64,000 nt of DNA, taken from Cytophagales bacterium (GTDB lineage Bacteria; Bacteroidota; Bacteroidia; Cytophagales; Spirosomataceae). The stretch covers positions 186,001 through 250,000 of the forward strand of contig JAAFJP010000001.1 in the NCBI GenBank assembly GCA_013298125.1, written 5' to 3'. Under the pieces are notes generated by a model. That model had not been told where the DNA came from, ran no database searches, and saw nothing but the letters and a program-made list of their open reading frames with translations. This document shows positions 13,377 to 23,888 of this stretch, one piece after another (position 1 is the first letter of the stretch; each line of letters begins with the position of its first letter). The position numbers were made by a program, and so were the translations under genes.

Positions 13377-13697
13377 ATGCAAACACACATCACTAATTAT
13401 TTTGGAACGCCCTTAATCATCGGCATCCGAACCAAGCTGTATTCCAACGAAATTCTCTTTTTTGAAGGAGAAGTTAATTACGCACGAGTACACTTCAAAT
13501 CAGGCAAACAGAAAATGATTGCCCGCACACTCCTATATATCCAGAACAAAATCAATACCGAAAATTTCATCCGTATCAACCGTAAATATTTAGTCAATCG
13601 CAAGTTTATTGTGGAGGTCGGGGACGACTTTGTGGTGCTGACGGATAAGACGGTTTTGCCGATTTCGAGACGGCGGAAGCGGGGGGTGCTTGTTTAA
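13377..13697 (+). CDS. Single-domain LytTR DNA-binding regulator
   Basis: 106 residues; a LytTR domain covers nearly the entire protein (ILFFEGEVNYARVHFKSG, then FIRINRKYLVN and the terminal LPISRRRKRG). It is a paralog of the regulator at 1363-1752. It forms an apparent operon with the small HTH gene 25 bases upstream. The 3' end is GC-richer than its surroundings. It lies 66 bases before the 5.5-kb secreted-protein gene, which is the likely target, but no direct evidence of regulation is visible. Confidence 0.85.
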   Translation: MQTHITNYFGTPLIIGIRTKLYSNEILFFEGEVNYARVHFKSGKQKMIARTLLYIQNKINTENFIRINRKYLVNRKFIVEVGDDFVVLTDKTVLPISRRRKRGVLV

Positions 13698-13763: not shown

Positions 13764-16700
13764 ATGAAAAATCTTCACTGCTTATTGCTCATATTAATTT
13801 TTTTTACAAAGAATATCTCCGCACAGGTCATTACTTCAACTAATCCTGTGATATGTGGAACTAATACCAGTGCTACTTTGAGTGCAAGCCCAACAGGCAC
13901 TTATCAGTGGTCGTTCTGTGCCACTGAGTTTGGAACTTATGCAAATATCTCTGGGGCTACTTCGAGTACATATACTACTACCAGTCTGGGTTTTTATAAA
14001 GTTTTAGTAAATAGTACGTTATCACCTGCATTTAGGGTGAGACAAGGCGGTACGGCTACATTGGTAAGTACATCTCCAACCGCCATTTCTGCGGGGCAAA
14101 GTACTACGTTGAGCATGACATTTACAGGTTCAGGACCTTGGTATTATACAGTTTCATCTACTGATGGAGTTTATAAAAAAGATTTTTCTTCAAATAACCC
14201 ATCGGCTACACTTTCAGTTTTACCGTTGAGGTCAAGTTATTACCAAATAAGTACCCTTTATGATGCAAACGGTATAGGATGCACCACAGGCTTGCCTTCA
14301 GTAACTGTAAATCCTACAGCAAGTTTCACATTACCTACACCTACTATTACGTCAGCTTGTGCAGGAAGTATTCTCGATATACCTATTACTTATTCTGGAA
14401 CTTGGGGAAGTGCAGGGAGTATTCCAAATAGCATTTATATTAGAACTAAATTGACTACCACTGCTGGAGTAACTGTAAATGGTACAGAGCAATATTGGAT
14501 GAATGGAAGTACATTGAAATATGTAATTCCTCCTGGAACAGCCACTGGTCAGTATAAAATCAGTGCTATTGCTGAATATCCAAGTACTGGGACTGTTTTA
14601 TCAAGCTATAATATATCAGTAGTGAATACTGGATGTAGTGTCATAAAGCCAATAATTAATATGTATAGTAACGGCTGTGATGCAAATCTTTATGCTAATC
14701 CACAAGGTTCAGGATATACTTACCAATGGTATAAAGATGGTGTTGCTATTCCCAATTCCAATTTTTACATCTACACGGTTAAAAGAACCTCTGAAAATGG
14801 TAATTATACTGTTGCTGTAACAAATAGTTCAATAAATTATAATAGTACCTCAGATGCAAAAACAGTTTTGGTAGGTGGGTCAGCAACATCTGTTACTAGA
14901 AATGGAAGTAATTTATGTGGTCAAGTTAGTTTAAGTAGTAATTACACAGGCTCGGGATTTACCTATCAATGGTATCGGTCTGATTTTGTAAGTGTTAATT
15001 CAAGGATTCCCTTAGTTGGAGAAACTAATCCAACAATTAATGTAACTCAACAGGGAAATTATATGGTAAAAGTTTGGGATGGAAGTTGCCAAAGTGAATC
15101 TGATGTACCAGCCGTATTTGATTGCCCACCCCAAATCACAAGTATAAACCCAATAATTTGTGGAGCAAATACGCAAGCTACACTCACAACAAGTGCCACA
15201 GGTACTTATCAATGGTCTTATTCGAGTTCACAGTTTGGTACTTATGCAAATATCTCAGGGGCTACCACAAATACTCATATTACCAGTACCATAGGGTTTT
15301 ATAAAGTTACGGTCAATGGTATTGTATCAAATCCATTTAGTGTAGCATCATCCTCTTATGCTATTGTTAATAATGCCAGTGGGAATACTAATCCAATCCA
15401 GATAGCGGCAAGTGGTGGAAATGCAGATTTACACATCAGTTTTTATGGTGCACCGCCATTTACGGCCACTTTGAGTAATGATAATATCTCAACTACTATT
15501 ACAAGTTCTACAAATTTAAAAATAATAAATGTGGCACCCGAAACCTCGAGATTTTACAATGTCAATAGTGTTCAAGGAAGTTGTGGTAGTAGTGGTAATG
15601 GAAGTAGTATTCTTGTAAACGTAGGACCTAATCCAGTTTTGGCTTATGCTACGCCTACCATGACAACTGTATGTCCAGGTGGGGTAATTACAATACCCTA
15701 CACCCTAACAGGAAACGGAGGTACAAATCGAAATTTATACGCTCAATTATATACAAGTGGTGGAACTTATGTCAATAATAGTTTCATAGGTAATTTTTCA
15801 AGTAACCCAATATATTATCAGATTCCAACCACAACAGCGGCTGGTACTTACAAATTCGCCATTGGTGGTAATTTACCATATATCAGTGGTACTGGACTTA
15901 GCCCTTATACTTTTGATGTTGTTACCACAGGCTGCCCAACTATACCACAGGCAGTTATTCAGTCTTATGTAAATTCTTGTAGTAATATTTCAATGAGTGC
16001 CATTCCAAGTGGTTCAGGCTATGCCTTTCAATGGTATAAAGACAATTTGTTAATCTCAGGAGCAACTTCTTCTAATTATACTGCAAGTTTAAGTGGTGCA
16101 TATAAAGTAGTAGTAACCAATACTACTACAAGTTATAATTCTACTTCGGCAGATAAAAATCTTACTATTGCCCCAAAGCCAATTTTGACTTCGCCTAATC
16201 CAGTTATTTGTGGGTCAAATACCTCTGCAACTATCTCTACGGCTTCTACGGGTGCGGGTTATACTTATCAATGGAAAAAATATAATACGACTACTTTTGT
16301 ATATGATAATTTGAGTGGACAAACCAGTTCATCTATCACTGTTACCGCCGCAGGAACATATCGTTTAGAAATGTTTGATGGTAGTTGTACTGTTACCTCA
16401 GATAATTTTGTCGTTTCAACTACTTCAAGTGGTGTATTAAAAAATTCTTCTGGAAATAACAATGCAGTAAATCTAAACCCTGGACAAACCGAAAATTTAC
16501 AACTTACACTAAGTGGCGTGGGTCCTTGGACTTACACGTTGTACGGTGGTGTGAGTAGTGTTACAAGTACGACCTCGACCTCGCCAGTAACAATACCTGT
16601 TTCACCCGAAGTTTCAAGAAATTATAGTGTTGGGCTTAATTCAAGTGGTTGTGGTTCTGGTAATGTTTCTGGTAGTGTTACAGTTAATATTTCGCCAAAC

Positions 16701-19238
16701 CCTTCATTTACTTTTGGTACAGTAGCCACAACAGCTTGCCCAGGAGGGTTTCTTGAAGTACCGACAACCCGAGTAGGAAATTGGGGAGTGAGTGGCTTTG
16801 AGAAAGTAGGGGTTACTCTATATACAAGTGCGGGTGCTTATGTATCATATATAGGGGAGTATTCAAGCCCAACAATGCTTGTGGCTATTCCATCAAGTGT
16901 AACGGTTGGTAATGCGTACAAGTTATATATTTCACCCTCTACCCCCTATATGTCAGGGAGTTATACGCCAAACTTCACTATCACAAGTACTTGCCCAGCA
17001 CCACCCAATGCGGTTATAGAAGAACAAAATAGTATCTGTTCTCCTCCAACTCTGAAAGCCTTACCATCAGGCTCTGGTTATACTTTTCAATGGAAAAAAG
17101 CTGGTGTAGATATTGTTGGAGCAACCTCTCAGACTTATAGCCCTACTCAGTCAGATAATTATTCAGTGGTTATACAAAATACAAGTTTGAGTTATAATTC
17201 TACTTCCCCAACAAAAGCAATAACGGTCAATGCCACAACGCCTACCCTTTCTTGCCCAAATACTATTTTGTGTAGTCCAAATACTTCCACAACTATTACT
17301 TCCAACTATACAGGGGTGGGCTTTACTTATAGTTGGAGAAAGGATTATGTAGTCATAGCTGGTGCTACAGGTTCATCAATTACTGTTACAGATGCTGGGC
17401 AGTATGATGTAACTATCGTAAATAATATTGGATGTACTTCCAGTTCAACTCAATTAAGGATTAGTTATAGTGGAAATGGTACATTACTAAATTCAAGCGA
17501 TAATAATAATGCTGTTTATATGGTTTCACCTCAAACAACAGAAAACCTAAAAGTAAACCTGACAGGAACAGGTCCTTGGGAGATTGGCTTGAATGATGGA
17601 AATACTTTACGTACCTATACAGCCAATGCAACTCCTTTTATAATTCCAGTTTCTCCAACTTCTTTGACAGTCTATTCTATAGGCTATGTGGCGAGTAGTT
17701 GTGGCATAAATAGGAATAATGTTGGTTCTGTCTCTGTTGGTATTGCTCCAACACCCACTATGACTTTTCCAACGCCTTCAAATTTGACTATTTGTAGAGG
17801 TAATATTATTGATGTACCATATACGGTTACTGGAAATGTAGGCAATAAATTGCAGATTGGTATATTATTAGGAGACCCAACTGGTGGTGAATCAAGGGAT
17901 GTTTATACCTATCAAAATGTAATTTTAGAACCTTTTCAAACATCTGGTACGATTCCAGTTTATATTCCCACGGATATTGCTTTGGGTTCTTATGCTATTC
18001 TCTTTTTTGCCAATAGCCCCTTTTTTAGATTAAGTCCTACTTATGATGGAGCATGGACAAGCTATGCAATAAATGTAGTTAATACAAGCTGTCCTGCACA
18101 ATCTGCACCCACAATTTCAGGGCTTTCGAGTGGATGTGAGTCAGTCTTTTTATCTGCAACCCCTTTCACAGGCTTTGGCGGTGCGGGAAGTAATACTTAC
18201 CAATGGTTTAAAAATGGCGTAGCCATGACGGGCAAAACATCATCTTCATTAACAGTCTATGAATCAGGCAATTATACCGTACAAGTTATCAACGGAGCAT
18301 ATAACCAAACGTCGGCAGCTAAAACAGTAACAATCAATCGTATTATTCCTACCATTACGTCTACCAATGCCGTTTTGTGTACTGGAAATACAAGTGCAAC
18401 ACTCACTACAAGTTTTACAGGTTCGGGCTATACACATCAATGGTACAAAGATGTAACATTCAGCAACGGTTCAGTTGAACAAATACCGCTTTTTGGCGAA
18501 ACAGCTTCTTCGCTTACAGTTTCTACTATTGGGGGCTACTCTATCAGAACTTGGGATGGGTCATGTTTGCAAAACTCAAAATCAAGTAGCGTGGATGTTA
18601 CAGGAAGTTTAGTACCAACACCCGCTTTTGCCGTTACTTCGTGCGTAGCATCTGCACCCGAAATCAACCTCAAAGGCAATAACGTAAGTATCATAAGCGG
18701 AGATATAACCCCAAGCACTACCGACCATACAGATTTTGGTTCGGTTTACATGGCATCAACTCCTATTGTTAGAACATTTACCATAGAGAATTTAGGTACA
18801 GCAAATTTAACGCTATCGGGTAGTCCATTGGTGAGTATTACAGGAACAAATGCCAGTGATTTTACGCTAACTACTCTTCCAACAAGCCCAGTAGTAGCAT
18901 CTGGAAGTACAACTTTCCAAATCACTTTTAATCCATCAGGAGCAAGCGTGCGTTCGGCAACGCTTAGTATTGCTAATAATGATTCTGACGAAAACCCTTA
19001 TACGTTTGCCATACAAGGTACTGGTATTTCATGTACTCTGAATACCAGTCAATCTTCGGGCAACTGGGGGACGGCAGGAGTTTGGTCATGCGGACACGTT
19101 CCGTTAGTAACCGAACCCGTCCAAATTTCATCAGGACATACCATAACACTTGACGTAAACGGCACAGCAAAAAGTTTGGATTTGAGAGGAATCTTGAATA
19201 AACAAGCGACGAAGATTTTGTTGATTCAGGGGAATTAG
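13764..19238 (+). CDS. Giant secreted Ig-repeat protein (1,824 aa) with G8-like C-terminal module
   Basis: Signal peptide MKNLHCLLLILIFFTKNISA is followed by about 4.5 copies of a composite unit. Each unit starts with an ICGxNTxATL Ig-like domain (starts near 13850, 15157, 16206, 17268 and 18373), then a GPWxYTL domain, a CxGxxxxIP domain and a GSGYxxQWYKDG Ig domain. Units are about 350-435 residues. After the repeats comes a HYDIN/ASPM-like choice-of-anchor D domain (DFGSVYMAS to FAIQGTG, about residues 1650-1755). The last 60 residues (NWGTAGVWSCGHVP to the final IQGN) resemble the start of a G8 domain and are nearly identical to the end of the protein at 21211-22728. No ordinary T9SS C-terminal domain is seen. 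Probable cell-surface adhesin; function inferred. Confidence 0.85.
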   Translation: MKNLHCLLLILIFFTKNISAQVITSTNPVICGTNTSATLSASPTGTYQWSFCATEFGTYANISGATSSTYTTTSLGFYKVLVNSTLSPAFRVRQGGTATLVSTSPTAISAGQSTTLSMTFTGSGPWYYTVSSTDGVYKKDFSSNNPSATLSVLPLRSSYYQISTLYDANGIGCTTGLPSVTVNPTASFTLPTPTITSACAGSILDIPITYSGTWGSAGSIPNSIYIRTKLTTTAGVTVNGTEQYWMNGSTLKYVIPPGTATGQYKISAIAEYPSTGTVLSSYNISVVNTGCSVIKPIINMYSNGCDANLYANPQGSGYTYQWYKDGVAIPNSNFYIYTVKRTSENGNYTVAVTNSSINYNSTSDAKTVLVGGSATSVTRNGSNLCGQVSLSSNYTGSGFTYQWYRSDFVSVNSRIPLVGETNPTINVTQQGNYMVKVWDGSCQSESDVPAVFDCPPQITSINPIICGANTQATLTTSATGTYQWSYSSSQFGTYANISGATTNTHITSTIGFYKVTVNGIVSNPFSVASSSYAIVNNASGNTNPIQIAASGGNADLHISFYGAPPFTATLSNDNISTTITSSTNLKIINVAPETSRFYNVNSVQGSCGSSGNGSSILVNVGPNPVLAYATPTMTTVCPGGVITIPYTLTGNGGTNRNLYAQLYTSGGTYVNNSFIGNFSSNPIYYQIPTTTAAGTYKFAIGGNLPYISGTGLSPYTFDVVTTGCPTIPQAVIQSYVNSCSNISMSAIPSGSGYAFQWYKDNLLISGATSSNYTASLSGAYKVVVTNTTTSYNSTSADKNLTIAPKPILTSPNPVICGSNTSATISTASTGAGYTYQWKKYNTTTFVYDNLSGQTSSSITVTAAGTYRLEMFDGSCTVTSDNFVVSTTSSGVLKNSSGNNNAVNLNPGQTENLQLTLSGVGPWTYTLYGGVSSVTSTTSTSPVTIPVSPEVSRNYSVGLNSSGCGSGNVSGSVTVNISPNPSFTFGTVATTACPGGFLEVPTTRVGNWGVSGFEKVGVTLYTSAGAYVSYIGEYSSPTMLVAIPSSVTVGNAYKLYISPSTPYMSGSYTPNFTITSTCPAPPNAVIEEQNSICSPPTLKALPSGSGYTFQWKKAGVDIVGATSQTYSPTQSDNYSVVIQNTSLSYNSTSPTKAITVNATTPTLSCPNTILCSPNTSTTITSNYTGVGFTYSWRKDYVVIAGATGSSITVTDAGQYDVTIVNNIGCTSSSTQLRISYSGNGTLLNSSDNNNAVYMVSPQTTENLKVNLTGTGPWEIGLNDGNTLRTYTANATPFIIPVSPTSLTVYSIGYVASSCGINRNNVGSVSVGIAPTPTMTFPTPSNLTICRGNIIDVPYTVTGNVGNKLQIGILLGDPTGGESRDVYTYQNVILEPFQTSGTIPVYIPTDIALGSYAILFFANSPFFRLSPTYDGAWTSYAINVVNTSCPAQSAPTISGLSSGCESVFLSATPFTGFGGAGSNTYQWFKNGVAMTGKTSSSLTVYESGNYTVQVINGAYNQTSAAKTVTINRIIPTITSTNAVLCTGNTSATLTTSFTGSGYTHQWYKDVTFSNGSVEQIPLFGETASSLTVSTIGGYSIRTWDGSCLQNSKSSSVDVTGSLVPTPAFAVTSCVASAPEINLKGNNVSIISGDITPSTTDHTDFGSVYMASTPIVRTFTIENLGTANLTLSGSPLVSITGTNASDFTLTTLPTSPVVASGSTTFQITFNPSGASVRSATLSIANNDSDENPYTFAIQGTGISCTLNTSQSSGNWGTAGVWSCGHVPLVTEPVQISSGHTITLDVNGTAKSLDLRGILNKQATKILLIQGN
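19059..19238 (+). repeat. 180-bp C-terminal coding module, copy 1
   Basis: By hand alignment this 180-base segment, including the stop codon, differs from 22549-22728 at 22 positions (about 88% identical) with no gaps. Flanking coding sequence is unrelated. Recent duplication or gene conversion of the 3' end is likely. Confidence 0.85.
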
Positions 19239-19332
19239 GAGAGCCTTTTTTTAACTAATTAGACATTGACGATTTCCTAAAATTAATAACAAACAATCTT
19301 TTATATTTTTCACAAATAACCATAACAAAAAA

Positions 19333-20529
19333 ATGAAAAAATCACTCTTCATAGCCCTTGCCTTAGTATTGATGGCAAACCTGAGCAATGCCCAAACCAT
19401 TTACCATTGCAACAACGACCCTTACGTAACACTATCGCCCAATATGTTTCGTACCCTACAAGCCGCCCACGATGCCGCCAGTGCTGGGGATATTATTTAT
19501 GTTGAGCCTTCGTATAATAGTACGTCTTATGGTGGATTAACTTGTACAAAAACTTTGAGAATTATTGGGAATGGGTATGACCTAACGCCAAATACAAGCA
19601 TTACACAGCCTTGGAATAAAAGCGAATCATTACTTGGAGGAAGTAATAGCACATTTACTATCATTATTAGGAAAACTGCCCCAAATACAGTATTTGAGGG
19701 ACTAAATTTAAGTTTAAGTGGGGCTGATTTATTAGTTGAAGCACAAAACGTAACATTTTCAAGATGTAAAATCTATGTAGCGTCAGGTTCTTATTTTCAA
19801 TTGATAAGAAAAAATACAGGAGAAAATGCGAGTGGGGCGATAATTACAAAATGTAGATTAGGAGGAGGAGGAAGTGGACTGTATATATATGCGAATGGCT
19901 ATGATGACTTCAATGCAACAACTTGTGCTTATACACCTTATCAAGTTCAAAATGTAACGATTAGTAATAATATTGGTTTCGGTGGAGTTTCTGTAAATAC
20001 AAGTACCTTGCCTCCGTATAATTTTACCATAAGACAGGGTGGTAGCTGTACACCAGCCACAGCTCCTGTTTCAGTTCCTCACGCTAATAATTTCACGATT
20101 ATAAATAATGTAACCTATAGTACTTTGGGAATTAATAGTTGCCAAAATTGTACAGTTCAGAGTAATATCATTGATGGCGTAATTCAATCCCAACTTTTTA
20201 GCACTATTGTCGCAGGAAATAATGTATGTACCTCTACCTGTGGATTTGGTTCAAATAATGTGCAAAATATACTTTTATCTTCTATTTTCTTAGGGGCGGG
20301 TCAATGGAATACTACTGACGAAGATTTTAGATTAAAAGTCGGTTCTCCCGCCATCGGTGCAGGCGTGGGAGGCGTTGATGCAGGAGCGTTTGGCACAAAT
20401 AACCCCTACCGTATTTCAGGTTTAGCCCCCATTCCCCAAATAACGAGTTATTCAAAAAATGCTTCTTCGGGGGTTTATACCACTACTACGCCCATGACGG
20501 TAACGATAAGTGTGCGGGGGAATAATTAG
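19333..20529 (+). CDS. Secreted right-handed beta-helix protein
   Basis: 398 residues with signal peptide MKKSLFIALALVLMANLSNA. The mature protein starts with a pattern typical of parallel beta-helix proteins: FRTLQAAHDAASAGDIIYVE, then GLTCTKTLRIIGNGYD, and repeated short turns rich in Asn (NVTISNNIGF, FTIINNVTY, CTVQSNIIDG). The end (SPAIGAGVGGVDAGAFG) matches the usual closing turn of bacterial beta-helix proteins. These fold like pectate lyases, but catalytic residues cannot be confirmed. It lies 94 bases after the giant Ig-repeat gene and probably belongs to the same surface locus. No known C-terminal sorting domain. Confidence 0.8.
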   Translation: MKKSLFIALALVLMANLSNAQTIYHCNNDPYVTLSPNMFRTLQAAHDAASAGDIIYVEPSYNSTSYGGLTCTKTLRIIGNGYDLTPNTSITQPWNKSESLLGGSNSTFTIIIRKTAPNTVFEGLNLSLSGADLLVEAQNVTFSRCKIYVASGSYFQLIRKNTGENASGAIITKCRLGGGGSGLYIYANGYDDFNATTCAYTPYQVQNVTISNNIGFGGVSVNTSTLPPYNFTIRQGGSCTPATAPVSVPHANNFTIINNVTYSTLGINSCQNCTVQSNIIDGVIQSQLFSTIVAGNNVCTSTCGFGSNNVQNILLSSIFLGAGQWNTTDEDFRLKVGSPAIGAGVGGVDAGAFGTNNPYRISGLAPIPQITSYSKNASSGVYTTTTPMTVTISVRGNN

Positions 20530-20535
20530 GAGGGA

Positions 20536-20724
20536 TTATTTTGAGAAGAAACCTTCTGGAAATTTCATTTTACTGAGTTTTTCTTTGGCACGGGCGTTTT
20601 TTTCAGCAAAAGGTTCGTAACCTTCTGGGAATTTCAAATCAGTTTTACGTTCCACAAAAATGGCTTGGGGTAACGTATCTATTTTTTGTTTCTGTAACAT
20701 CATTTTAAAATTATTTTGATTCAA
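20536..20724 (-). CDS. Small uncharacterised protein, second gene of an inverted pair
   Basis: 62 residues, hydrophilic and Lys-rich. It contains a short internal duplication: LKFPEGY at about residue 31 and MKFPEGF near the end. Not recognised. Its start lies 2 bases after the stop of the gene at 20727-21167, so the two are translationally linked. The pair is inverted relative to the secreted-protein genes on either side and converges with the beta-helix gene, leaving only 6 bases between stops. The tight spacing with the DUF6934-like gene suggests a functional pair; toxin-antitoxin function is only a hypothesis. Confidence 0.6.
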   Translation of the reverse strand: MNQNNFKMMLQKQKIDTLPQAIFVERKTDLKFPEGYEPFAEKNARAKEKLSKMKFPEGFFSK

Positions 20725-20726
20725 AA

Positions 20727-21167
20727 TTAGAACAATTTTCGGATTAAAAAAGATTCATAAGATTTATCTTTTTGGAAAGGTTCAGGTTCACCTTCGATTA
20801 GTCCAAAAATCTCATAAGTCGGTATTAGCCTTTCATAGTAACGATTTATGATTCTTTGGTATAGTTGAGTTCTGACTGAATCACTACCTTCAATATAAAT
20901 ATAAGACATGAGATTTTCTGAAAGAAATTTTACTGCAATGCTAATTACAGTAGCCAAAACTTTTACAATGTCACCATTATCTGAAACAGCCGTATAACTA
21001 ATTAACTCGGTTTGATAGTCGTAATCACCAAATCCGAAATTATAGATATTATCATCCATTTCAGAGAACATTACGACCTTAGTTATTATACCTTGTGGAC
21101 CGATACTCTCAAAAACATATCTGTCTTTTTCTGGTACATATTCAATTTTATAAGTGGGTTGAATCAT
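20727..21167 (-). CDS. DUF6934-like protein
   Basis: 146 residues. The N-terminus (YKIEYVPEKDRYVFESIGPQ) and the following VVMFSEMDDNIYNFGFGDYD and SDNGDIVKVLATV stretches match my memory of the Bacteroidota family DUF6934. The C-terminal half contains an amphipathic helix (YQRIINRYYERL). No enzymatic motif is evident. First gene of a two-gene unit with the small protein at 20536-20724. It is divergent from the 505-residue secreted-protein gene, only 43 bases apart, so both promoters must overlap. Family assignment is moderately sure; function is unknown. Confidence 0.55.
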   Translation of the reverse strand: MIQPTYKIEYVPEKDRYVFESIGPQGIITKVVMFSEMDDNIYNFGFGDYDYQTELISYTAVSDNGDIVKVLATVISIAVKFLSENLMSYIYIEGSDSVRTQLYQRIINRYYERLIPTYEIFGLIEGEPEPFQKDKSYESFLIRKLF

Positions 21168-21210
21168 TAGTGGATTAAATTTTCACAAAGCTAAAAACAT
21201 TTTTAAGGAA

Positions 21211-22728
21211 ATGAAAAAATATATCATTTGTACCATTGCTATTTTGTGTGTCATTGGTTCAATAAATGCCCAAAACATTACAAAAATAGAATATTACATA
21301 GACACCGACCCAGGATTTGGCGTGGCTACTGATGTTCCCATCACCGCTACAACGCCCATCAATAACCTAAACGTAACCGTCCCCATGATGGGGCTAACAG
21401 ATGGTTTTCATCAGTTTTTTGCAAGGGCAAAAGATGCTACGGGAGCGTGGAGTATGGTGTCAAGCCATCAGTTTTTGAAGGTTACGCCCAGCAATCCACC
21501 TGCCGCCACAACGCCCAATATCACAAAAGTGGAGTATTATATTGATATCGACCCAGGTTTTGGCGTGGCAACTGATGTACCTATTTCGGTAGGAAATTCC
21601 ATCAATAATCTGAACATCAATTTACCCATGACAGGGCTAACGGATGGTTTTCATCAGTTTTTTGCAAGGACGAAAGATGCCAATGGAGCTTGGAGTATGG
21701 TATCGAGCCATCAGTTTTTGAAGGTAACGCCCAGCAATCCACCCGCCGCTGCAACGCCCAACATCGTGAAAGTGGAGTATTACTTAGACACTGACCCAGG
21801 GTTTAACTTGGCTACGAATGTGCCTATCACGGTAGGAAACCCTATCAATAATTTGAACATCAATTTACCCATGACAGGGCTAACGGATGGTTTTCATCAG
21901 TTTTTTGCGAGGGCAAAAGATGCTAACGGGATTTGGAGTATGGTTGCGAGTCATCAGTTTTTGAAAACGACAGTAGTCATTACGCCCTCTGCGACAATCC
22001 CCAACATCGTCAAAGCGGAGTACTTTATAGACACAGACCCAGGTTTTAATAGTGGCGTGAATATTCCGCTTACGGCAGGTACACCCATTACCAATCTGAA
22101 TGCCACCATCAATATTTCATCATTAGCGGGAGGGACACATCAGGTTTTTATCAGAACAAAAGATGCTTTGGGGGGGGGGAGTATCGTCAACACCCAAACC
22201 TTCACGATTGCCAATAATGCCATGTTGGTAGGAGCAGTTCCCACGGGTTTTTGTAGAGCAAATGCTTTTAATATTCCTTTTGTGGCAGGTGGAACTTTCA
22301 ATGCGGGTAATATTTTCACGGCTCAATTATCGGATGTCAATGGGAGTTTTTCGAGTCCCACCGTCATAGGTACACTCACAGGAACAAGCTCAGGGACGAT
22401 TTCAGCCACTATCCCGAATATCACGGCGGTAGGGACAAATTATAAAATCAGGGTAATTTCGAGTAACCCAGCCCTTACCAATGTAGATGAAGAGCCGTTT
22501 GCAGTTTTATTGCTTTGCCAATGCCTCAACAACATTTCCTTAATGACAGGCAACTGGGGAACGGCAGGCATCTGGTCATGCGGACACGTTCCGTTAGCGA
22601 CAGAACCCGTCCAAATCTCATCAGGACATACCATAACGCTTGACGTAAACGGAGCTGCAAAAAGTCTGGATTTGAGAGGAATTTTAAATCAACAAGCGAC
22701 TAAGGTTTTGACGATTCAGGGGAATTAA
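21211..22728 (+). CDS. Secreted tandem-repeat protein with G8-like C-terminal module
   Basis: 505 residues, signal peptide MKKYIICTIAILCVIGSINA. Residues about 22-340 are four repeats of exactly 81 residues, each beginning N-I-x-K-x-E-Y-x-I/L-D-x-DPGF and containing GFHQFFARxKDAxGxWSMV; the fourth is more diverged. A Cys-Arg-containing beta domain follows (about 345-435), similar to the domain in the partial protein at 1-349. The last 60 residues are nearly identical to the C-terminus of the giant protein at 13764-19238. A run of ten G residues (22170-22179) lies inside the fourth repeat. Probable surface protein; role unknown. The PorP/SprF gene follows downstream. Confidence 0.85.
   Translation: MKKYIICTIAILCVIGSINAQNITKIEYYIDTDPGFGVATDVPITATTPINNLNVTVPMMGLTDGFHQFFARAKDATGAWSMVSSHQFLKVTPSNPPAATTPNITKVEYYIDIDPGFGVATDVPISVGNSINNLNINLPMTGLTDGFHQFFARTKDANGAWSMVSSHQFLKVTPSNPPAAATPNIVKVEYYLDTDPGFNLATNVPITVGNPINNLNINLPMTGLTDGFHQFFARAKDANGIWSMVASHQFLKTTVVITPSATIPNIVKAEYFIDTDPGFNSGVNIPLTAGTPITNLNATINISSLAGGTHQVFIRTKDALGGGSIVNTQTFTIANNAMLVGAVPTGFCRANAFNIPFVAGGTFNAGNIFTAQLSDVNGSFSSPTVIGTLTGTSSGTISATIPNITAVGTNYKIRVISSNPALTNVDEEPFAVLLLCQCLNNISLMTGNWGTAGIWSCGHVPLATEPVQISSGHTITLDVNGAAKSLDLRGILNQQATKVLTIQGN
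21274..22245 (+). repeat. Four tandem 243-bp coding repeats
   Basis: Repeat starts at 21274, 21517, 21760 and 22003 are spaced by exactly 243 bases each. The first three are close to identical over long stretches (for example CATCAGTTTTTTGC in each); the fourth is diverged. In-frame repeats of this type readily expand or contract. Confidence 0.9.
22170..22179 (+). repeat. Homopolymer run of ten G within a coding region
   Basis: Ten consecutive G residues in the fourth repeat of the 505-residue protein gene. The frame is intact as given. Such tracts are prone to slipped-strand changes and to sequencing error. Confidence 0.9.
22549..22728 (+). repeat. 180-bp C-terminal coding module, copy 2
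   Basis: Gap-free match to 19059-19238 with 22 differences by hand count. It encodes the same NWGTAG(V/I)WSCGHVP to IQGN ending. Confidence 0.85.
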
Positions 22729-22877
22729 TTTGATTTGAGTATTCACAATCAAATCACACGCAGTACCCGTGATTGCTGCTAATTCAATCACACTTTTGTT
22801 ATCGTGTGTTATTCTGTTTTTTAAATATAGATATAGAGAAACGGTTTAATTTCAGATTTTTTGATTCATAATAATAT

Positions 22878-22915
22878 AAAAAGCCTTGTTCTGGTTATAG
22901 GAACAAGGCTTTTTT
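22878..22915 (+). terminator. Intrinsic terminator after the 505-aa gene
   Basis: AAAAAGCCTTGTTC pairs perfectly with GAACAAGGCTTTTT across a 9-base loop. It sits between the tandem-repeat gene and the PorP/SprF gene, so the latter probably has its own promoter between 22916 and 22946 or is reached by readthrough. Confidence 0.85.
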
Positions 22916-22946
22916 CGTAAATTGGGTTTTTAAAGAAAACGAAACC

Positions 22947-23888
22947 ATGAACAGAACATTCAAATATCTATTAACAATCCTATTATTCTCACAGGCGTTT
23001 CAAATACAAGCACAACAAGACCAGTTGTATATCACCTACCCCTTCATGCCCCTCAGTGTCAATCCTGCCTATGCGGGTAGTCGTGAGGTAATTAGTATTT
23101 CGGGTATTTTTCGTAAACGTCCTTTATTTACTTCATTGAGTGGACTTCAAGTTGCTTCAACAACTCAGCAATATTTCAGCTTCGATATGCCAATTGCCCA
23201 AGACAAAATGGCAATTGGTTTTCAAGCCTACAATGCCGAACAGGCTTTGGGAAATGCCAGCGGGGCAATCTTAGGAAATTTAGGTTTATACGGAAACTTT
23301 GCCTACCGAATTGCCTTACCAAATGACGGAAAACTTGCCATAGGTGTACAGTATGGCGTTACGCAAGTTCCTGCATTTTTTAGCACTACGGGTGGAGGCA
23401 TCGGTTCAACAGGTTTCAATTCAAGTCTCGGAGGAGGTATTTATTACAACAATGACGATGCTTATGCGGGTGTATCAATGCTAAACATCAATGCCACAGA
23501 CAGTTACAATCGCCCAATTTTCTTCACGGCGGGCTACGTCTTCACGATTGACGATGAATTTAAAATCAAAACAGGAGCATTGGTCAGAAAACAATCTACC
23601 AATGCGGGAGGAAAAACCGACTTTGACCTCAACGCAACTGGTTGGATAAAAGACAAGTACGGAATAGGTATTTGGTATCAAAATACAGGTTCTGATGTAT
23701 CGAGCAAAGCCTCTATTTTAGGTTCATTTCAAATACAAGTCAAAAAAGCACAAATTGGTTATTCTTATGATTTCTCAGGTTCGGGTACTACAACAGGAGC
23801 TGGTTCTTCCGAAGGTTTCCACCAGTTTATGCTTCGCTACGAAATTGATGCAGGAAACGGTAAATCAAGCGTTTTTAGGTATTTCTAA
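22947..23888 (+). CDS. PorP/SprF family type IX secretion system membrane protein
   Basis: 313 residues with a signal peptide (MNRTFKYLLTILLFSQAFQI, QAQ). The beginning QDQLYITYPFMPLSVNPAYAGSR has the NPAYAGS motif that defines PorP/SprF proteins, and the rest alternates beta strands of an outer membrane barrel, ending in FMLRYEID and a terminal Phe. In Flavobacterium, SprF is required for secretion and surface display of the adhesin SprB, encoded just upstream, and PorP/SprF proteins are associated with T9SS cargo having type B C-terminal domains. Here it follows three secreted-protein genes of the same strand, two of which share an unusual C-terminal module. Its stop overlaps the convergent Ada-like gene by 4 bases. 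Confidence 0.92.
   Translation: MNRTFKYLLTILLFSQAFQIQAQQDQLYITYPFMPLSVNPAYAGSREVISISGIFRKRPLFTSLSGLQVASTTQQYFSFDMPIAQDKMAIGFQAYNAEQALGNASGAILGNLGLYGNFAYRIALPNDGKLAIGVQYGVTQVPAFFSTTGGGIGSTGFNSSLGGGIYYNNDDAYAGVSMLNINATDSYNRPIFFTAGYVFTIDDEFKIKTGALVRKQSTNAGGKTDFDLNATGWIKDKYGIGIWYQNTGSDVSSKASILGSFQIQVKKAQIGYSYDFSGSGTTTGAGSSEGFHQFMLRYEIDAGNGKSSVFRYF

Follow-up and report, generated by a model that had tools for sequence, protein, structure and literature searches.

A C-terminal module of predicted Spirosomataceae surface proteins as a probable further class of type IX secretion signal

Two genes within a 64,000-nucleotide stretch of a Cytophagales bacterium genome (family Spirosomataceae; GCA_013298125.1, contig JAAFJP010000001.1, positions 186,001 to 250,000; this whole stretch is called the window here) encode secreted proteins that have unrelated bodies and end in nearly the same C-terminal module, which raises the question of what this shared tail does. 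A preliminary description of the locus proposed that the module stands in place of a standard C-terminal domain and represents an unrecognized class of sorting or anchoring signal of the type IX secretion system (T9SS), serving the PorP/SprF protein encoded downstream. Published accounts of this system describe sorting domains of types A, B, and C. We consider it likely that the module is an all-beta T9SS C-terminal sorting domain of about 60 residues that belongs to neither type A nor type B. This view is based on its C-terminal position, on its exclusion of type A domains in the proteins tested, on a protein family in which it has taken the place of type A, and on the presence of the SprA gene in all 61 family genomes searched. 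The proposed link to the neighboring PorP/SprF protein did not hold up, as discussed below.

A genome-wide family of C-terminal modules

The first of the two proteins (1,824 amino acids (aa), 13764..19238, plus strand, like the 398-aa, 505-aa, and PorP/SprF genes below) passes a signal-peptide rule and consists of immunoglobulin (Ig)-like repeats, a choice-of-anchor D domain at residues 1632-1743 (18657..18992; NCBIfam NF012200, E = 3.6e-25) and, shortly downstream, module copy 1, whose 64 residues run up to the stop codon (19044..19235). Choice-of-anchor domains stand before differing C-terminal anchoring signals. The second protein (505 aa, 21211..22728) contains about four repeats of ~80 residues, recognized by eye, followed by module copy 2 (22534..22725). 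Both copies are supported by sequence comparison and by BLAST and profile matches, and copy 1 was also modeled with AlphaFold. As the preliminary description had noted, the two proteins share the module, with 84% identity across the last 64 residues, and are unrelated before it: their bodies give no mutual BLAST match at 1e-5, and the similarity at the DNA level spans the module and stops at the stop codon. The last 180 coding bases align without a gap and differ at 21 sites, one fewer than the 22 counted earlier.

These two copies are members of a genome-wide and family-wide C-terminal domain family. With a single module copy as query, 35 matches were found in the 5.85 Mb genome that contains the window (E ≤ 10), and a profile built from 27 rows gave 38 (E ≤ 1), so the likeness of the modules is not due to chance. 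Analyses of this genome comprised searches plus fetched stretches, and 35 of the 38 profile matches were read, the three weakest being left out. In 32 of these 35 the module ends 0-14 residues before the stop codon, and three are internal. The same position recurs in named genomes, where the stop lies 56-61 residues downstream of the first Trp in 38 of 41 matches (the other three are internal), and in 29 of 30 loci drawn from a search of 61 genomes of the family. The named carriers include Spirosoma, Arcicella, Rudanella, Telluribacter, further Cytophagales, and one Flavobacterium; one Flavobacteriales metagenome-assembled genome has an internal match only. This search used a five-row module subset with a pattern that demands a W.CG core, and the named-genome sample is therefore biased to Cys-bearing copies. 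Several module genes of the window genome have close relatives in Arcicella, to which the source bacterium is probably near. Internal module copies in large proteins are present at loci L035 and L038, where the flanks look RHS/YD-repeat-like by eye.

Across the family, module matches, internal ones included, are found in 42 of the 61 genomes, the highest number in a single genome being 36. Within one genus, the genomes G427, G443, and G000 have 0, 25, and 36 matches, respectively, indicating fast gain or loss of the module. Most other copies in the window genome are merely 25-48% identical to copy 1, and two Trp residues and one Pro near the end are nevertheless in register in all 32 C-terminal modules. 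A disulfide between the Cys of the W.C motif and an upstream Cys was also considered; among these 32 copies, W.C occurs in 12 of 16 with an upstream Cys vs. 8 of 16 without one (Fisher p = 0.27), and the disulfide is therefore not claimed.

The proteins that carry the module look like surface or secreted proteins. Signal peptides were recognized in 30 of the 32 by a crude hydropathy rule, used instead of a trained predictor. The same rule accepts 42 of 50 proteins with type A and 9 of 12 with type B domains. A lipobox was found in none of the 32. The bodies, scanned with Pfam for 10 of the 32 proteins, include Ig repeats, DUF1501, a sialate esterase, M43 peptidases, and amylase-like and pectate lyase-like domains. 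Two open frames of genome G000, with 11,690 residues on contig C34 and 12,797 residues on contig C45, look like giant surface proteins; the longer one has a type B match over the cut-off, and the shorter one gave weak type A rows only.

The carriers live in T9SS genomes. In searches covering SprA, PorP/SprF, and SprB repeats, SprA (TIGR04189) exceeded the cut-off in 61 of 61 family genomes, including that of the window, and in none of 14 controls. In the window genome, 55 matches to type A and 14 to type B exceed the cut-off, with some overlap between both, and there are six PorP/SprF genes vs. 32 C-terminal modules.

Despite sharing its setting with these established domains, the module is unlike either of them. 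Type A domains (TIGR04183, PF18962) are likewise found at the extreme C-terminus of signal-peptide proteins in T9SS genomes and occupy the same position in related DUF1501-like proteins, but their model has 72 positions against about 60 residues in the module, those of the window genome have a PNP and GxY pattern that the module lacks, and hhalign gave a probability of 0.5% for a match between the two profiles. Solved type A domains are described as Ig-like sandwiches (PMC11285876). Type B domains (TIGR04131, PF13585) resemble the module in being C-terminal, on large adhesin-like proteins, and, at the window locus, in having PorP/SprF downstream; however, the hhalign probability was 0.1%, the module has no systematic PorP/SprF neighbor, and enzymes are among its carriers. 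In the proteins tested, the module also did not occur together with these tails: it was found in none of 62 tested proteins of the 69 type A and B matches over the cut-off in the window genome, and a test of 35 module proteins detected neither type A nor C-terminal type B domains, one giant protein having weak internal type B-like matches. The type C domain, known from ChiA of Flavobacterium johnsoniae (cl41395, about 100 residues; PMC10202324), is a C-terminal signal that, as proposed here for the module, adds a class to types A and B; the NCBIfam matches of the module included no T9SS type C model, the presence of such a model in the copy searched being unconfirmed. Short C-terminal T9SS signals of 43-55 residues that retain motifs B, D, and E are described for Prevotella intermedia (PMC11969387). 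They are similarly short, but their motifs resemble those of other species, whereas the module shows no type A profile similarity.

Neither of the searched copies of Pfam and NCBIfam has a model dedicated to the module. NCBIfam yielded no fitting model and just single chance-level matches among the 38 module members, and Pfam (E ≤ 1) yielded weak matches to PF14828 (Amnionless) in 12 members (best E = 5.5e-5) and to PF10162 (G8) in eight (best E = 3.6e-4). The window copies themselves have no PF10162 match. The earlier description of the module as G8-like is weakly supported. No paper on the module was found in the open-access literature, with preprints and most subscription papers outside this scope.

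Tail replacement in the DUF1501-like family

Among the sequence evidence for a sorting role, the strongest comes from a change of tail within one protein family. In the window genome, a type A protein (C55) and a module-tailed protein (C34), both DUF1501-like, share 48% identity over 447 aa, and their similarity ends at the tail boundary. A search with the Pfam DUF1501 model mostly gave another branch, whose 30 loci were not used; the body of the module-tailed protein of the window genome was used as query instead and gave 107 matches in the 61 family genomes (E ≤ 1e-20). Tails were read for 73 of the 107, two of them cut by the fetched stretch, which leaves 71 complete tails: 50 type A by a local profile, two type A by eye, 18 with the module, and one protein without a tail. 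An NCBIfam scan of ten of these tails placed seven over the TIGR04183 cut-off and one just under it, and found no match in the remaining two, of which one is the protein without a tail and the other was labeled type A by eye.

In a maximum-likelihood tree of 70 DUF1501-like bodies, the 18 module proteins form one clade (100/100) among type A proteins. The tree requires one tail change, compared to a mean of 16 when tails are shuffled, and none of 500 shuffles was as low. It was rooted at the midpoint, and the four long branches flagged are all type A, with no module row among them. Provided that the tree is rooted within the type A proteins, type A would have been replaced by the module once, and the module then kept, in agreement with the earlier proposal that it stands in place of a standard C-terminal domain. 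The 18 module-tailed proteins come from 15 genomes, 12 of which also hold type A versions (45 genomes read). Two further families of the window genome seem to carry both tails among paralogues, namely the esterase (38.6% identity over 407 aa) and the M43 peptidase (26.7% over 337 aa).

The proposed cognate PorP/SprF, module copying, and structural alternatives

That a PorP/SprF gene follows the module genes was correctly described: the 313-aa product (22947..23888) matches PF11751 (E = 1.5e-36) and TIGR03519 (1.2e-41). The module might accordingly be the cognate signal of its neighbor, as type B domains are of theirs. In favor of this model are the adjacency at the window locus, the observation that published type B/PorP pairs are often neighbors, and the case of one orphan SprF-like shuttle in F. 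johnsoniae that is reported to serve three orphan substrates (PMC12618676), a precedent that makes a PorP acting in trans possible. One further module gene of the window genome (contig C20) has a PorP gene at a distance of about 2 kb, on the other strand. Near relatives of the window PorP, defined by a score of over 140 bits to the window protein and not by a tree, occur in 16 of the 61 family genomes, and their presence is not associated with that of the module (at least one module, Fisher p = 0.54; at least four, p = 0.39; at least ten, p = 0.75). No such relative is found in two genomes that have 32 modules each, and six genomes with a relative lack the module. Outside the window, no module open reading frame (ORF) was found near any of 15 such relatives in the fetched stretches, and no PorP was found beside 38 named module genes with a model that was built from the window protein alone and may miss distant PorPs. 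A PorP/SprF gene as the next gene, in the manner of type B, was seen at the window locus alone. Nor does another gene appear as a conserved partner around the 38 named loci, where the most recurrent families occur in five loci at most, all around one orthologous gene. Together with the lack of a type B match of the module profile, these results make a cognate PorP/SprF signal very improbable; the window PorP/SprF is a neighbor of the module genes, and its membership in a module system is not supported. At four of the 15 loci (L329-L332), a type B gene is followed by two PorP genes, of which the second corresponds to the window PorP; in the three of these loci read gene by gene, an OmpA-like protein, recognized by eye, lies between both PorPs.

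Between the two module genes lies a gene for a 398-aa protein (19333..20529) with a signal peptide by eye and with no Pfam or NCBIfam match, module, or type A or B domain. It is followed by a gene for a DUF6934 protein (PF22028; 20727-21167, minus strand), a family without known function, and directly upstream of the 1,824-aa gene a 106-aa protein is encoded in which a LytTR DNA-binding domain alone is recognizable (13377-13697).

The near identity of the two window copies may in part reflect copying between genes, for which the preliminary description had invoked homogenization by gene conversion. A paralogue of the 505-aa protein on contig C17 (1,042 aa, 46.7% identity over 338 aa) is module-tailed too, and the fourfold sites of this pair differ at 6 of 28 positions in the module vs. 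50 of 77 in the body (p = 1.2e-4). Such low divergence argues for recent copying of the module and not for protein-level constraint alone, and in this one paralogue pair recent copying is therefore supported. It would be hard to believe, however, that the copies are alike through recent duplication only and have no functional meaning. This reading is already contradicted by a family that is diverged and still conserved, with most copies in the window genome sharing no more than 25-48% identity with copy 1 while keeping the two Trp and the Pro in 32 of 32, and by the retention of the module throughout the 18-member DUF1501-like clade.

A more serious alternative is that the module is a structural or adhesive domain, such as a beta-solenoid stub, a fold cap, or a ligand-binding tail, that has no role in sorting and belongs to proteins exported by another route or signal. 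The AlphaFold model of window positions 19014-19235, calculated with the alignment of 38, is confident and nearly all beta with seven short strands (predicted local distance difference test score 91.6, predicted template modeling score 0.78). Foldseek returned four hits, none of them a T9SS domain and none a type A domain; the best was Amnionless, with a template modeling score of 0.57 by query length and an E value of 4.1, which is too weak on its own and agrees with the weak Pfam matches to G8 and Amnionless. Both of these domains are parts of larger extracellular proteins and are not known to serve as C-terminal sorting tails. Relatives of the module elsewhere in the phylum, moreover, often open long beta-solenoid-like domains. 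What makes a purely structural role unlikely is the replacement of type A tails in the DUF1501-like family, the position of the module as the last element on bodies as different as DUF1501, esterase, M43 peptidase, amylase-like, pectate lyase-like, and Ig-repeat proteins, and the lack of any type A or C-terminal type B match in the module proteins tested.

The interpretation as a sorting domain nevertheless has to accommodate several observations that weigh against it. The analysis brought no receptor to light. Three copies in the window genome are internal, and 19 of the 61 family genomes (14 of 55 of good quality), one of them from the genus of the window, have no module match despite encoding SprA. 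Cross-matches to type B domains are among the matches counted for TIGR04183, and 13 of the 14 controls gave a TIGR04183 match at E ≤ 1, with one at the cut-off. The tail swap is a single event on the tree and thus one strong case, not many, and the esterase and M43 peptidase pairs have low identity and were scanned with Pfam for their module-tailed members only. Among the 34 DUF1501-like matches whose tails were not read, 29 come from frames no longer than 459 aa, one of which is truncated at the end of its contig. Such frames leave no room for a tail, and the family therefore also has a branch without one. Outside the family, 60 of 69 module matches read were not C-terminal, and many of these open long beta-solenoid-like domains; the fold is therefore not by itself a sorting signal. 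A mostly internal position, which the preliminary description had named as evidence against a sorting role, is thus seen outside the family and not within it, where 29 of 30 loci are C-terminal, and another of its tests, a search for canonical type A or B C-terminal domains in the module proteins, detected neither.

In a profile search of 395 genomes of the phylum, at most 15 candidates were scored per genome and 127 genomes had a match, a number that mixes internal and C-terminal copies and is thus not a count of sorting tails. Of the 69 matches read outside the family, 42 were selected in part by their rank in the search output and in part because they came from the same class or order, and the 8 of these 42 that were C-terminal do not represent a rate. 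The nine C-terminal copies in total are diverged modules from three genomes of the same class and another order (L060, L367, L369, L370, L372, and L373 in G091, L375 in G064, and L357 and L377 in G158) and perhaps go back to an earlier or separate recruitment as a tail.

A candidate sorting route and its implications

Taken as a sorting domain, the module is probably a further class of T9SS C-terminal signal that is common and patchily distributed in the family. On this point the preliminary description is supported by the extreme C-terminal position, the predicted signal peptides of most carriers, their occurrence in T9SS genomes, the lack of a type A domain in the 35 module proteins tested, and the replacement of type A in the DUF1501-like family. 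Module-tailed proteins would reach the periplasm via their N-terminal signal peptide, where the tail would be read by the T9SS, presumably by the SprA translocon, and the protein passed across the outer membrane. Since no paired neighbor gene was found, we infer that the receptor may be a shuttle that acts in trans and is shared by the module proteins, and that it may resemble PorV more than a cognate PorP/SprF. By ancestry, the tail may be the first unit of a G8/Amnionless-type beta-solenoid that is used alone and has been copied from gene to gene as a cassette. A fuller scenario, in which this recruited unit forms a fourth class of T9SS signal with a dedicated trans shuttle distinct from both PorV and a cognate PorP/SprF, and spreads as a cassette, with cargo switching its export or anchoring route while keeping its body, is put forward tentatively and may well not hold in all its parts.

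On this reading, T9SS cargo predictions that rely on models of the three described types would overlook some 30 proteins of the window genome, which has 32 C-terminal modules. How the T9SS recognizes different signals, and whether these mark different destinations, is left open by a review of the system (PMC10202324). DUF1501-like relatives with either tail within one cell, as found in 12 genomes, make the question of signal recognition directly testable, and the module may represent a case of a signal domain being copied between genes.

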